Source: Microvirga sp. TS319 (GTDB lineage Bacteria > Pseudomonadota > Alphaproteobacteria > Rhizobiales > Beijerinckiaceae). Taken from it: a DNA stretch of 64,000 nt. A program made the translations under genes and the position numbers. How positions within the stretch are numbered: the stretch's first letter is position 1; each line of letters opens with the position of its first letter. The DNA lies in NCBI RefSeq assembly GCF_041276405.1, contig NZ_JBGGGT010000002.1, positions 4,024,501 to 4,088,500 on the forward strand, written 5' to 3'. Positions 46,858-52,608 of this stretch are shown here, in pieces. The notes beneath the pieces are model-generated. The model did not search any database. It was not told the DNA's origin and saw only the letters and a list, made by a program, of their open reading frames with translations.

Positions 46858-47220
46858 TTAGGATTTCTGGTGCGCGATGATGCGGTCCTTGATCGCATCA
46901 TAGGCGTTTTGGGGAATGATCTTCTTGTCGATGAGATCGCTCTTCGCCTTGTAAGGGCGGCCCTGGATGATCGCATCGGCCCGGGCGGTGCCGATCTGAG
47001 GCAGCTTGTCGAGCTCGTCCTTGGAGGCCGAGTTGATGTCGATGAGCTTGCCGACCGAGGCTGTCGAGCTGGGCGCCGGCTTTGCGGCAGGCGCCGGCAT
47101 GGCCGCGCTTGCCGGCGGTTTGGCCGGAGTGCTGGTGCTTGGTGCGGTGGTCTGCGCCAGAAGCGGTGAGGTGAGCAGGAAAGCGAGAGCAGTGATCGCT
47201 CCGAGACGGGACAGATGCAT
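46858..47220 (-). CDS. Secreted helix-hairpin-helix protein (ComEA-like)
   Basis: This is a 120-residue protein with a signal peptide (ending SPLLAQ), a Pro/Ala-rich linker and a C-terminal helix-hairpin-helix (LIDINSASKDELDKLPQIG, ADAIIQGRPYKAKSDLIDKKIIP). It resembles the DNA-binding half of ComEA, the periplasmic DNA receptor of natural transformation. GGAGG lies 5 bases before the start at 47220. No other competence genes are adjacent. Confidence 0.85.
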   Translation of the reverse strand: MHLSRLGAITALAFLLTSPLLAQTTAPSTSTPAKPPASAAMPAPAAKPAPSSTASVGKLIDINSASKDELDKLPQIGTARADAIIQGRPYKAKSDLIDKKIIPQNAYDAIKDRIIAHQKS

Positions 47221-47566
47221 TGTATCCTCCTTCTGTTCGCCAGCCATGATCAGGCCGCTTTCTTCAAAATGCCGAAACCCGCCGAAGGCTCCCCTGAACG
47301 GGCTGTTTTCCGGCGTTGAGATTCGCTCCTGATGCCCATCCTGCGCGTTGAGCCGCCGGCAAGCCCCCCGTTTGCAGATCGCGTCCGGCGTCGCCGCACG
47401 ACCTGCAAACGGGATGAGGCGAGCAGCCTCGGTCGGCTCACCCACGGCTGCCTTCTGGCGCATTGTGCAAAAAGTGGACTTGGTTTTTCAGCATGCGCGA
47501 TGCGCTGCGTTCGTCAGGAGCCTCGGATGGATCCAAACGTGCAAATCCACTTTTCGCGTTCGATGC
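47221..47566. other. Intergenic region with inverted repeat and palindromic repeat
   Basis: This gap holds the ComEA-like promoter at its left end, a perfect 11-bp inverted repeat at 47367-47413 and a palindromic repeat at 47460-47569. No gene is seen. Confidence 0.5.
47367..47413. repeat. Perfect 11-bp inverted repeat with 25-base loop
   Basis: CCCGTTTGCAG (47367-47377) and CTGCAAACGGG (47403-47413) are exact inverted copies. They may form a stem-loop in RNA from the minus-strand gene upstream. The U-run of a terminator is missing. Confidence 0.7.
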
Positions 47567-49524: not shown

Positions 49525-49954
49525 CACAATGGTCCTCCAGGCATCACACCCATTTGGTCCGGACGGGAAGCCTGCTTTCAGCACCCATGGCGGGTAGCGG
49601 CCTTCTTTTCCCGTCCGTCCAAGAAACGCCACGACTACTGGTGGAATATTCGTGGTCGGGAACACGACTATTTGCAATGCGATGGGCTTTCCTTCCCTCT
49701 GTTATTGAGGATTAATACGATTGAGTTCTTTGCGATGCTTGACAGGGAGCGGCCCAGATGCGAACCGCTCGAATTCCTCGATCCGGCGGGATTCGCACCC
49801 TTGCGTCCGGAGCCGGGAGCCGATTACATCCGGCCCCCGCAGCAGGGCGCCTCCCTGTCCGTGCGACCCTCCGCCTCGTCCGGCCCGATTCCGAATCAGC
49901 CGGTTTTTATGCTAGAACAAAGCACGAACAATCCAGCGGAAGACCTCCGTTTCC
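49525..49954. other. Long divergent promoter region of porin and radical SAM gene
   Basis: This 430-bp stretch holds the porin promoter (AT-rich around 49690-49740) and a LexA box at 49915-49929. A plus-strand frame through 49735-49960 (MLDRERPRCEPLEFLDP...) stays open but lacks a ribosome site and runs into the radical SAM gene in another frame, so I do not call it. Confidence 0.5.
49915..49929. promoter_or_regulatory. LexA (SOS) box, GAAC-N7-GAAC
   Basis: GAAC-AAAGCAC-GAAC is an exact match to the alphaproteobacterial LexA operator consensus. It lies 26 bp before the radical SAM start codon, where bound LexA would block transcription. Confidence 0.85.
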
Positions 49955-51169
49955 ATGGACGAAAAACTCAGCCGCAAGCTGCGGATCCTGGCGGATGCCG
50001 CGAAATACGACGCGTCCTGCTCCTCCTCCGGAGCCCATGGGCGCAAGGCCGATATCGATGGCCTGGGCTCCACCACGGGAGCCGGAATCTGCCACGCCTA
50101 CACGCCGGACGGGCGCTGCGTCTCCCTGCTCAAGATCCTTCTGACCAATTACTGCCTGTTCGACTGCGCCTATTGCGTGAACCGGCGCTCGTCCAACGTG
50201 AAACGCGCGCGGTTTTCGGTCGACGAGGTGGTGACGCTCACGGTCGCTTTCTACAAGCGCAACTACATCGAAGGCCTGTTCCTGTCGTCGGGGATCATCC
50301 GTTCGCCCGATCACACCATGGAGCAGATGCTGCTGGTGGCCAAGAAGCTTCGCCGTGAGCACGGATTTCGCGGCTACATCCACCTGAAGACGATCCCTGA
50401 GGCGAGTCCCTGGCTCATCGAGGAGGCGGGCCTCTGGGCGGATCGGCTGTCCATCAATCTCGAACTGCCCACGGAGAAGAGCCTGGAGCGGCTGGCGCCG
50501 GAAAAGGACGGCGCGTCGATCGAAGGCGCCATGGCCCAGATGTTCGAGCGAATCGAGGAAGCGCGCGAGGAACGCCGCCATTTCTCGCCCGCGGGACAGA
50601 CGACCCAGGTCATCGTCGGGGCGGACGACACCACCGACGCGGAGGTCCTGAGCACCTCCGCCCGGCTCTACGGCCGTTACGACATGAAGCGCGTGTACTA
50701 CTCCGCCTTCAGCCCGATTCCGGATTCGAGCGCCGTCCTGCCGCTGAAGCCGCCGCCGCTCCTGCGTGAAAGCAGGCTCTACCAGGCCGATTGGCTGATG
50801 CGCCATTACGGCTTCCAGGTCGAGGAGATCGCCGAAGGCGGCGAGAAGGGCATGCTCGATCTCGATGTCGACCCCAAGCTCGCCTGGGCGCTCAAGAACC
50901 GCCACCTCTTTCCCGTGGATGTGAACGCAGCCGCGCGCGAGATGCTGCTGCGCGTGCCGGGCCTCGGGACCCGCGCGGTCGACAGGATTGTGGCGGCGCG
51001 ACTGCACACCGCGCTGCGGCTCGAAGACGTGGCCCGCCTGACCTCGGGCCTCAGGCGCTCCAAGCCCTTCCTCGTCACCATCGATCATCACCCGAAGGCT
51101 ACTCTCGACCGGCAGGATCTGCGCGAACGCCTGATCGAGAAGCCCCGACAACTGAGCCTGTTCGCATGA
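49955..51169 (+). CDS. Radical SAM DNA modification/repair-associated protein, linked to UdgX
   Basis: This is a 404-residue radical SAM enzyme. The Fe-S/SAM cysteines are Cys67, Cys71 and Cys74 in CLFDCAYC. A C-terminal helix-hairpin-helix (LLRVPGLGTRAVDRIVAARL) suggests DNA binding. The extreme C-terminus is PRQLSLFA: QLSLF (residues 399-403) is the classic beta-clamp binding pentapeptide. The gene is preceded by a LexA box and overlaps the UdgX-fusion gene by 4 bp. It matches the family known as the radical SAM protein paired with UDG (TIGR03916). The reaction is unknown. Confidence 0.92.
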   Translation: MDEKLSRKLRILADAAKYDASCSSSGAHGRKADIDGLGSTTGAGICHAYTPDGRCVSLLKILLTNYCLFDCAYCVNRRSSNVKRARFSVDEVVTLTVAFYKRNYIEGLFLSSGIIRSPDHTMEQMLLVAKKLRREHGFRGYIHLKTIPEASPWLIEEAGLWADRLSINLELPTEKSLERLAPEKDGASIEGAMAQMFERIEEAREERRHFSPAGQTTQVIVGADDTTDAEVLSTSARLYGRYDMKRVYYSAFSPIPDSSAVLPLKPPPLLRESRLYQADWLMRHYGFQVEEIAEGGEKGMLDLDVDPKLAWALKNRHLFPVDVNAAAREMLLRVPGLGTRAVDRIVAARLHTALRLEDVARLTSGLRRSKPFLVTIDHHPKATLDRQDLRERLIEKPRQLSLFA

Positions 51170-52608
51170 ACCTTCACCGCATCACCCTCCGGAACGCCGC
51201 GGATCTCGACGGTTTTCGCCGGGCCGTGCGCTGGCTCGCCTGCGAGGAACTCGCGCCGCAGCACGTCGTCTGGTCGCTCGACGAAGCGCCCGGCCTCTTC
51301 GGCGAGGACGCCTTGCGCGATGCGCCGCCGGTGTCTCTGCCGAGAGGCGTGGCGCGCCTCATCGAGCTCGGCGTGTGCCACAGCGATCCCGAACGCTATG
51401 CCCTGCTCTATCAGCTCGTCTGGCGCGTCCTGAACGGCGAGCGCGATCTTCTGGAGGTGGCGAGCGACCCGCTCGTCCACCGCATCGACGCCATGGCCCG
51501 CGCGGTCCGGCGCGACCTTCACAAGATGTACGCCTTCGTGCGCTTCCGGCGCATGAAAGCCGAGCATCTCGAGCGTTTCGCCGCCTGGTATGAACCGGAG
51601 CATTTCGTCCTGGAAGCCGCGGCTCCGTTCTTCATCGACCGCTTCCGCTCTCTCGACTGGACGATCCTGACTCCCGTGGGCTCCATGCGCTGGGACCGGC
51701 GGGAGCTGCGCTTCGGCCCGCCCGGGCGGCGAGAGGATGCGCCGGCGGAGGACGGCTTCGAGGAGGGCTGGCGCGGCTATTACGAGAGCGTGTTCAACCC
51801 CGCACGGGTGAACCCCGTCGCCATGCGGGCCGAGATGCCGAAGAAATATTGGCGCAACCTGCCCGAAACCGCCTCCATTCCGGGCCTGATCCAAACCGCC
51901 TCCCGGCGCGTTGACGCCATGATCGGACAGGAGGCGACCATGCCGGCAAAACGTACACCCGAACGGGCTCTCGAAGCCATGTGGGATCAGGAGCCCGCGA
52001 CGCTCGAGGATCTCAACGCCATCATCGCCAAGGCGGGGCCGCTGGTGCCCGGCGCGACCCAGGCGGTGTTCGGCGAAGGGCCGAAGCACGCGGATATCGT
52101 GTTCGTCGGCGAGCAGCCGGGCGATCAGGAGGACCTGCAGGGGCGCCCCTTCGTGGGACCAGCCGGCAGGCTTTTCGACAAGGCCATGAAGGAAGCTGGC
52201 ATCGACCGCTCACACGCCTATCTGACCAATGCGGTCAAGCATTTCAAATTCGAGCAGCGCGGCCATCGCCGCATTCATTCCAAGCCCACGGCCGGCGAGG
52301 TGAAGCATTACCGGCCCTGGCTGATGAAGGAGCTGGAGCTGGTGCGCCCCAAGCTCGTGGTGGCGCTCGGCGGAACGGCTCTCCTCGCCCTGACGGGCAA
52401 GTCCACGCCCATCTCCCGCTCGCGCGGGCGCGCCCGGTTCGGGCCTTACCTGGGCTACGTCACCGTGCATCCCAGCTACCTGCTGCGCCTGCCCGACGAG
52501 GTGACGAAGCGCGAGGCCTACGAGGCCTTCGTCGAGGATCTGCGCCGCATCCACGATCTCGCACAAGCCGATCCGGACACGGGCGAGCTGCCGCTCGCGG
52601 CTGAGTGA
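51166..52608 (+). CDS. udgX: DUF4130-UdgX fusion, uracil-DNA glycosylase superfamily
   Basis: This is a 480-residue two-domain protein. Residues 1-245 are DUF4130 (YALLYQLVWRVLNGERDLLEVASDP, then ARAVRRDLHKMYAFVRFRR). Residues ~255-470 are a UDG-superfamily domain with GEQPGDQEDLQGRPFVGPAG and the R-loop HRRIH, whose His371 corresponds to the residue UdgX uses to bond covalently to the abasic site after uracil removal. The start overlaps the radical SAM stop as ATGA, so they are co-translated under the same LexA box. UdgX enzymes keep a covalent link to DNA; the DUF4130 role is unknown. Confidence 0.92.
   Translation: MNLHRITLRNAADLDGFRRAVRWLACEELAPQHVVWSLDEAPGLFGEDALRDAPPVSLPRGVARLIELGVCHSDPERYALLYQLVWRVLNGERDLLEVASDPLVHRIDAMARAVRRDLHKMYAFVRFRRMKAEHLERFAAWYEPEHFVLEAAAPFFIDRFRSLDWTILTPVGSMRWDRRELRFGPPGRREDAPAEDGFEEGWRGYYESVFNPARVNPVAMRAEMPKKYWRNLPETASIPGLIQTASRRVDAMIGQEATMPAKRTPERALEAMWDQEPATLEDLNAIIAKAGPLVPGATQAVFGEGPKHADIVFVGEQPGDQEDLQGRPFVGPAGRLFDKAMKEAGIDRSHAYLTNAVKHFKFEQRGHRRIHSKPTAGEVKHYRPWLMKELELVRPKLVVALGGTALLALTGKSTPISRSRGRARFGPYLGYVTVHPSYLLRLPDEVTKREAYEAFVEDLRRIHDLAQADPDTGELPLAAE

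Follow-up and report, generated by a model that had tools for sequence, protein, structure and literature searches.

What does a putatively SOS-controlled operon encoding a radical SAM protein and a DUF4130-UdgX fusion do, and which of its parts does the control accompany?

Domain architecture of the operon

Family models bear out the domain identities that the first-pass annotation had assigned to this locus: the radical SAM protein scores 550.4 bits against TIGR03916 (cut-off 343.5), and the fusion scores 190.9 bits against TIGR03915 (cut-off 112.25) and 295.6 bits against the UdgX family TIGR03914 (cut-off 189.95). Pfam models agree, with PF04055 in the radical SAM protein (30.6 bits) and the DUF4130 (PF13566, 131.3 vs 27 bits) and UDG domains in the fusion. 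The radical SAM ORF extends from the ATG at 49955 to the stop at 51167-51169 and overlaps the fusion gene by 4 bp (ATGA, 51166-51169), as the annotation had also stated in describing an operon. The features of the locus are as follows, numbered within the window (the whole 64-kb stretch of DNA analyzed).

49915-49929, + strand: LexA box GAACAAAGCACGAAC, a GAAC-N7-GAAC direct repeat whose spacer starts A-W-A
49955-51169, + strand: TIGR03916 radical SAM protein, 404 aa, with a C-terminal HhH-like stretch
50018-50119, + strand: extra cysteines C22, C46 and C55 (codons 50018-50020, 50090-50092 and 50117-50119)
50153-50176, + strand: canonical radical SAM motif CxxxCxxC (C67, C71, C74)
50915-51004, + strand: HhH-like stretch, possible DNA contact (residues 321-350; PF12836, E 3.8e-4, below the curated cut-off)
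51166-52608, + strand: DUF4130-UdgX fusion, 480 aa, its start ATG inside the overlap with the radical SAM stop
51199-51870, + strand: TIGR03915/DUF4130 domain (residues 12-235)
51877-52551, + strand: UdgX-type uracil-DNA glycosylase domain (residues 238-462)

In the radical SAM protein, the three cysteines of the canonical motif and the three extra ones, six in total, are invariant in 28/28 aligned sequences from three phyla, an alignment that leaves out the distant relative from Gemmatirosa (38% identity), in which the extra cysteines appear, as judged by eye, to be absent. Because the structure model is poor around C22, C46 and C55 (block pLDDT 35-53), it does not separate cluster ligands from a hydrogen donor. 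The match of the HhH-like stretch to HHH_3 (PF12836) is weak (20.9 bits vs the 27-bit cut-off), and P335, G336 and G338 within it are invariant in the 28-sequence alignment. A PDB sequence search with the radical SAM protein returned no match, and the list of fold matches to the whole fusion was filled by UDGs. Across 20 chosen DUF4130 sequences, conservation falls chiefly on Arg, Phe, Trp, Pro and Tyr columns, and no Cys or Gly column is conserved.

The LexA box and its conservation

The box ends 25 nt before the radical SAM ATG. The bare pattern GAACn7GAAC is weak evidence on its own, since it occurs six times in the window vs a shuffled mean of 1.59; genome-wide it has 211 sites vs 122 for the reversed control. 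The refined pattern GAACAWAn4GAAC, which was picked post hoc with the sites already known, has 23 sites in the 6.26-Mb genome vs 2 for the reversed control, and the box at 49915 is the only one of the six matches in the window that fits it. The same genome encodes LexA and carries two recA genes preceded by boxes of the refined type, while several of the 10 ORFs that adjoin refined boxes are not SOS-like. No promoter-like site emerged from a sigma-70 scan.

Conservation of the box before orthologs had been named beforehand as a test, and the outcome was strongly favorable: the box lies within 150 bp of the radical SAM start in 80/80 relatives (the best 80 of 501 found, which are not independent observations), against a shuffled mean of 0.34. 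In the same 80 relatives, the reversed motif and the n6 spacing were never found (0/80 each) and the n8 spacing once (1/80). This conservation settles that the box is real, and it rules out a chance origin together with the genome count and the shuffles. The fusion does not adjoin the radical SAM gene in 2 of the 77 testable relatives (L042, L044).

The alpha-type box is also present at all 22 alphaproteobacterial loci drawn from an even 200-genome phylum sample. Of the eight non-alpha proteobacterial loci, six carry instead a strict E. coli-type box (CTGT-N8-ACAG; shuffled mean 0.015), and the two types are mutually exclusive, neither group having the other's box. A third LexA box type was found at a single locus; no exact box of these three types was found at the two other non-alpha proteobacterial loci, nor at those of Parabacteroides, Gemmatirosa and one phage-labelled contig. 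Judged by its sequence, GAACAAAGCACGAAC is a strong alphaproteobacterial LexA box to which LexA would presumably bind. The annotation had called the box perfect and the SOS control direct; the former is confirmed, the latter is upheld as a prediction by the conservation of the box, and the proposed role in the damage response likewise gains support.

Distribution of the radical SAM-DUF4130 pair and of UdgX

According to the TIGRFAM notes, the radical SAM family is reportedly always paired with the DUF4130 family, the UDG fusion being only partial. Our survey reveals such strict pairing: the two occur together in 81/312 genomes, and an above-cut-off gene of one alone was found in none. In the phylum sample, TIGR03916 and TIGR03915 exceed their cut-offs in the identical 31/200 genomes (referred to as core genomes). 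In one genus, 52/119 genomes have DUF4130 above the cut-off; precisely these 52 also possess the radical SAM gene, which is itself above the cut-off in 51 and split into two pieces in the other (G245).

UdgX shows a looser distribution. It is missing above the cut-off from 8 of the 31 core genomes, 7 of which retain the SOS box. In the phylum sample, 6 genomes have UdgX but not the pair, and in the genus the same is true of 53 of the 105 genomes with UdgX above the cut-off. Only 1/27 UdgX-only loci overall retain the box; in the genus, it is present at 21/22 examined core loci vs 1/24 examined UdgX-only loci, and 9/20 UdgX-only loci carry a DUF4130 tail. The sole examined core locus of the genus in which the box is off by one base is that of G245, where box and radical SAM gene are in concerted decay. 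Thus, the LexA box tracks the radical SAM-DUF4130 pair and not UdgX, which is optional. Among mobile-element records, 158 of 72,556 plasmid records and 10 of 50,697 phage records were positive, and one scan of viral contigs yielded two loci, one of them (L161) with an alpha-type box.

A UdgX clade without iron-sulfur-type cysteines

The following features were identified in the UdgX module.

52108-52122, + strand: motif A, GEQPG
52267-52278, + strand: R-loop RRIH, whose histidine corresponds to the residue of Mycobacterium smegmatis UdgX (MsmUdgX) that crosslinks to DNA (PMC10359453)
52309-52311, + strand: codon of Tyr382, in the place of a Cys in MsmUdgX and the cysteine-bearing relatives
52468-52488, + strand: motif B, HPSYLLR

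The ligands of the UdgX 4Fe-4S cluster are presumably the CxxC motif and a cysteine preceding R-x-W. Both are present in MsmUdgX, and CxxC is missing from 81 of the 106 collected UdgX domains, including that of the window; the third place is occupied by Tyr in 80 of these 81 (L037 was not scored). Since it lacks CxxC and has Tyr at the third place, we call the window's UdgX a cluster-less variant and not an ordinary UdgX. The class signature given in PMC10359453, which describes MsmUdgX as 4Fe-4S-containing, comprises GEQPG, the R and H of the R-loop and HPS..LLR, all of which the window's domain possesses. It belongs, by sequence, to a clade that has lost the iron-sulfur-type cysteines and has the residues for covalent trapping, and whose members probably work without a 4Fe-4S cluster. 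We found no precedent for a cluster-less UdgX in the literature searched, which covers parts of papers and few subscription journals.

Proposed function and alternatives

We give an even chance to the interpretation that the operon encodes an SOS-induced, two-subunit radical-SAM enzyme that would repair a DNA lesion, with UdgX as an accessory. LexA would repress the operon via the box at 49915-49929 until removed by damage-activated RecA. The obligate core would consist of the radical SAM subunit, responsible for catalysis and possibly for DNA binding through its HhH-like stretch, and of the DUF4130 subunit, which probably binds DNA or the lesion. The 5'-deoxyadenosyl radical formed by the former may take a hydrogen atom from a damaged base or from its adduct, and at least one of the three extra cysteines could complete the reaction, either by donating hydrogen or by helping to ligate a second Fe-S cluster. 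UdgX would excise uracil and then cap the site covalently, here probably without a 4Fe-4S cluster. More tentatively, and at somewhat less than even chances, TIGR03916 and DUF4130 may constitute a second widespread class of radical-SAM DNA repair, distinct from SplB: two-subunit, SOS-induced, with six cysteines, directed at a lesion common enough to be placed under LexA control in several phyla, and coupled here to a cluster-free covalent uracil trap.

The co-occurrence of the pair is also compatible with a maturase that acts on a partner protein: the radical SAM protein would then introduce a crosslink, a thioether or a glycyl-type radical into DUF4130, the working enzyme. We regard this as unlikely, as the 20 chosen DUF4130 sequences share no Cys or Gly, and the HhH-like stretch, albeit below the cut-off, points to DNA. 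Slightly less probable still is a DNA modification system in which the pair would act on intact bases, with UdgX policing what it produces: the NCBIfam name reads "DNA modification/repair" and a legend in PMC3765255 mentions thymines as a possible target of modification by these enzymes, but LexA-type control, seen with three types of box (the third at one locus), is more in keeping with damage repair than with constitutive modification.

The same paper uses the label "SplB-like", and we assign a similarly small likelihood to a spore-photoproduct-lyase-like enzyme with UV dimers as its substrate. Radical SAM chemistry and SOS control would suit it, SplB being SOS-controlled in several species according to PMC8565304; however, NCBIfam listed 18 families at E <=10, the SplB model not among them, and spore photoproduct lyase is absent from the 50 fold matches listed, neither of which excludes a relative. 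The annotation itself had suggested that the partner processes or prevents covalent UdgX-DNA crosslinks, which are known (PMC10359453) and which the fusion of DUF4130 to UdgX in a common operon brings to mind. This we consider improbable: core genomes without UdgX mostly keep the box, UdgX is frequent without the pair, and as a general function crosslink processing is rejected by this gene distribution.

Comparison with known systems

COG4277 is, we assume, the TIGR03916 radical SAM family. SOS control of radical SAM/DUF4130/UDG genes is not new, having been reported or predicted earlier in several bacterial groups: PMC8565304 predicts it for the two-gene operon COG1573-COG4277 of Bacteroidetes, i.e. 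for the same families as in the TIGR03916-TIGR03915 operon, and cites a UDG-based system as SOS-controlled in Verrucomicrobia and Alphaproteobacteria, while PMC3828012 predicts that LexA controls CAC3343-CAC3344, an operon of Clostridium. One radical SAM gene of Streptomyces venezuelae, not assigned to TIGR03916, is reported to be LexA-bound. In contrast to the earlier papers, which, as far as accessible, describe UDG-based repair or functionally uncharacterized genes, our data show the box to accompany radical SAM and DUF4130. In the literature searched, the sole mention of DUF4130 in the accessible text was the legend remark in PMC3765255; no paper covered both UdgX and radical SAM, and no description was found of the function of UdgX neighbor genes or of a substrate, reaction or phenotype of the pair. 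With the pair as the damage-controlled unit and UdgX as an optional passenger, the focus moves to the radical chemistry.

UdgX serves as a tool for mapping and trapping uracil in DNA. In contrast to M. smegmatis UdgX, with its CxxC and third Cys, the window's UdgX lacks these residues and is fused to DUF4130; its clade offers a natural test of the cluster's role and possibly a simpler tool protein. SplB is likewise a radical SAM protein, with DNA as its presumed target and a link to the SOS response, although it shows no family-level match among those listed. The pattern of its extra cysteines presumably differs from that of the TIGR03916 protein, whose invariant cysteines provide named residues to test.

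The locus and its LexA box

All the features that the first-pass annotation had described here, a LexA box, a radical SAM gene and an overlapping DUF4130-UdgX fusion gene, are present in the window sequence:

49915-49929, LexA box, GAACAAAGCACGAAC, read in the sequence
49955-51169, radical SAM gene, starting 25 nt past the LexA box
51166-52608, DUF4130-UdgX fusion gene, overlapping the radical SAM stop codon (ATGA)

The encoded proteins exceed the curated cut-offs of the family profiles TIGR03916 (radical SAM, 550.4 bits), TIGR03915 (DUF4130, 190.9 bits) and TIGR03914 (the uracil-DNA glycosylase UdgX, 295.6 bits), and Pfam finds DUF4130 and UDG in the fusion. On the minus strand, 46858-47463 encodes a small protein whose C-terminal stretch by eye resembles a ComEA-type helix-hairpin-helix (HhH).

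The bare pattern GAAC-N7-GAAC occurs six times in the window (1.59 expected) and 211 times in the genome (122 for the reversed control). A refined form, GAACAWAn4GAAC, chosen only after sites had been seen, has 23 sites in the 6.26 Mb genome against 2 for the control; the window's box is among them, as the sole fit of the window's six bare matches. Family tests of 10 mechanically picked ORFs next to these 23 sites revealed two recA genes (575.2 and 574.6 bits), dnaB (672.9), an ImuA-like ORF (50 bits, below the 150-bit cut-off), an RmuC-like ORF (37.7 bits, far below it), a histidine kinase, an RND efflux adaptor and a marginal TnsA-like match, while two of the 10 had no family match. The two recA genes (L140, L148) each have a separate refined box. 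The genome also encodes LexA (185.5 bits).

Conservation of the box

A search for LexA boxes before orthologs of the radical SAM gene, proposed in the first pass, found one in every relative covered: among the best 80 of 501 relatives from named genomes, GAAC-N7-GAAC lies no more than 150 bp before the start of the radical SAM gene in 80/80, 15 of them in the GTTC orientation (dinucleotide-shuffled mean 0.34; reversed motif 0/80, spacing 6 0/80, spacing 8 1/80). The first 30 of these loci listed bear the name Microvirga, as does a protein of 97% identity (Microvirga sp. M2), which points to a probable Microvirga host. Of 52 anchored loci from genera other than the window's, 44 have A as the first spacer base and 51 have it as the third, and the 40 bp left flank carries 0.19 bits per column; since anchoring fixes all eight GAAC letters, only the spacer is independent evidence.

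In an evenly drawn phylum sample of 200 genomes, TIGR03916 is above cut-off in 31, and six others have only weak partial matches (18-30 bits). We compared box types at 30 of the 31 loci, the window's own apart. The alpha type (GAAC-N7-GAAC) is present in 22/22 alphaproteobacterial loci and the strict E. coli type, CTGT-N8-ACAG, in 6/8 others (shuffled mean 0.015), with no instance of either in the opposite group; two genomes, G074 and G094, have neither. Among seven further loci, those of Cupriavidus and Caballeronia carry the CTGT type and that of Phaeobacter the alpha type. The locus of Pusillibacter (Bacillota) has two GAAC-N4-GTTC sites; between these and its radical SAM gene a small ORF (L132, 2858-2986) apparently heads the operon. 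Parabacteroides, Gemmatirosa (a distant relative, 38% identical) and a phage-labelled gut contig showed none of the three types in exact form, and a bare GGA-N5-TCC lies about 200 bp upstream in Parabacteroides and the gut contig. That the motif type varies with the host while boxes are still present suggests that LexA control of the locus has largely been retained despite the changed LexA motif. A predicted viral contig (IMGVR_UViG_3300006947_003566, L161) also encodes a radical SAM homologue, and an alpha-type box begins 41 bp before the matching stretch.

SOS control of this system is itself already published or predicted. The interpretation first offered was partly right. In PMC8565304, a two-gene operon COG1573-COG4277 falls within predicted Bacteroidetes networks, and a putative UDG-based repair system is said to have been reported as SOS-regulated in Verrucomicrobia and Alphaproteobacteria (its refs 7, 65). 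Other papers predict LexA control of CAC3343-CAC3344 (PMC3828012), call DUF4130 a predicted mutagenesis-related enzyme in a legend (PMC3765255), and describe a gene so named as upregulated during desiccation in Acinetobacter sp. Tol 5 (PMC13130816).

Distribution of the core pair and UdgX

TIGR03915 is above cut-off in the same 31 phylum-sample genomes as TIGR03916, on the same contig, where its coordinates place it beside the radical SAM gene. TIGR03914 reaches its cut-off in 29: 23 of the 31 pair genomes (G194 being split at a contig end and G155 having the UDG part in another frame) and six without the pair. The G155 arrangement (L096) is a frameshift or a sequencing error. Eight genomes have the core without UdgX above cut-off (G074, G183, G099, G023, G046, G082, G190, G196), and seven of them keep the SOS box. 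Among 119 genomes of one genus, DUF4130 passes its cut-off in 52. The radical SAM gene occurs in this same set, scoring above cut-off in 51 and broken into two pieces in G245. UdgX passes in 105, of which 53 lack the pair; three further genomes (G071, G220, G204) retain only a sub-cut-off C-terminal DUF4130 scrap. With the seven genomes common to both samples counted once, the two genes occur together in 81 of 312, and apart from G245, with its broken radical SAM gene, no genome has just one of them above cut-off. To our knowledge, the TIGRFAM notes already give the DUF4130 family as the constant partner of the radical SAM family, and a UDG fusion in only part of the former.

In the same genus, 19/20 further core loci have the box (21/22 with L102 and L104). 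None of 20 further UdgX-only loci has one within 600 bp of UdgX; six show a single bare match about 810 bp upstream, always with a TGA spacer start rather than A-W-A. By pattern, a C-terminal DUF4130 tail precedes UdgX in 9/20, the other 11 retaining at most a few DUF4130 residues. L121 is the only one of four more such loci (L119-L122) with a box, which lies immediately before its leftover DUF4130 tail. Three others lack a box: L123, L124 and L125, this last being an additional UdgX copy of a core genome. The total is thus 1/27. The number of events is smaller than these counts, because genomes of one genus share ancestry. Boxes are thus kept by the core and rare in UdgX-only loci, so UdgX persists in genomes that lack the pair and is mostly outside SOS control there; that the box tracks the core, not UdgX, is new as far as our literature search reaches. 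In G245 (L202), where the radical SAM frame is broken, the box is at its usual place but has one base changed; DUF4130 and UdgX are still present there. Strict linkage of the fusion to the radical SAM gene is countered by Methylobacterium dankookense (L042) and M. symbioticum (L044), in which the radical SAM gene has its box and the fusion sits at another genomic site. These are 2 of the 77 relatives that could be tested, contig ends having cut 3 more. The relocated fusions (L138, L139) have no box within the 3.7 kb examined.

Possible function

Following established SOS biology, LexA would repress the operon until RecA-driven release on damage. The radical SAM protein, by the chemistry of its superfamily, would then abstract a hydrogen from a DNA lesion with a 5'-deoxyadenosyl radical; we infer DNA as its substrate because of the SOS control, the HhH-like stretch in the protein and the fusion of UdgX to its partner. 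We consider such an SOS-induced repair mechanism acting on a DNA lesion an even call. It competes with readings of the radical SAM protein as a maturase or as SplB-like, and of the pair as a DNA modification system or, close to the first-pass proposal, as handling UdgX-DNA crosslinks. The six-cysteine set of the radical SAM protein appears to be new within the literature we searched.

In 20 chosen DUF4130 sequences the (nearly) invariant columns are mostly aromatic or basic (F124, R126, F127, R159, W165, W202, R214, W229), with E143, D101 and H119 also nearly invariant; we read them as probably binding nucleic acid or protein, rather than as metal chemistry. The fold matches listed for the fusion were taken up by its UDG domain.

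UdgX without cluster-type cysteines

In the UdgX of Mycobacterium smegmatis (MsmUdgX), motif A is preceded by CRGC and R-P-W by a Cys, cysteines that we take to bind its 4Fe-4S cluster. Our comparison covered the CxxC and the third Cys place, three of the four presumed ligands. CxxC is present in 25 of 106 UdgX domains (window included), 24 of them also scored with the third Cys; in L134 this Cys is seen in the letters though the pattern missed it. In the 81 domains lacking CxxC the third place is Tyr in 80 (L037 unscored). These 81, from Microvirga, Methylobacterium/Methylorubrum, Azospirillum, Pseudoroseomonas and relatives, form one group (support 0.893, FastTree tree rooted on L115). The rooting sequence, a non-alphaproteobacterial fusion with CxxC (G054), has an R-loop departing from KRRIH by an insertion followed by RKH. 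Among database proteins near the window's UdgX, CxxC was found in 0/231 (of 236, 5 being too short to judge). We infer from these residues that the clade has lost the Fe-S cluster, and such a predicted cluster-less UdgX clade is new to the extent of our search. GEQPG and the R-loop His are kept, so that covalent trapping may survive. The window's UdgX and its clade, without the CxxC and the third Cys, differ in this from MsmUdgX, which has both.
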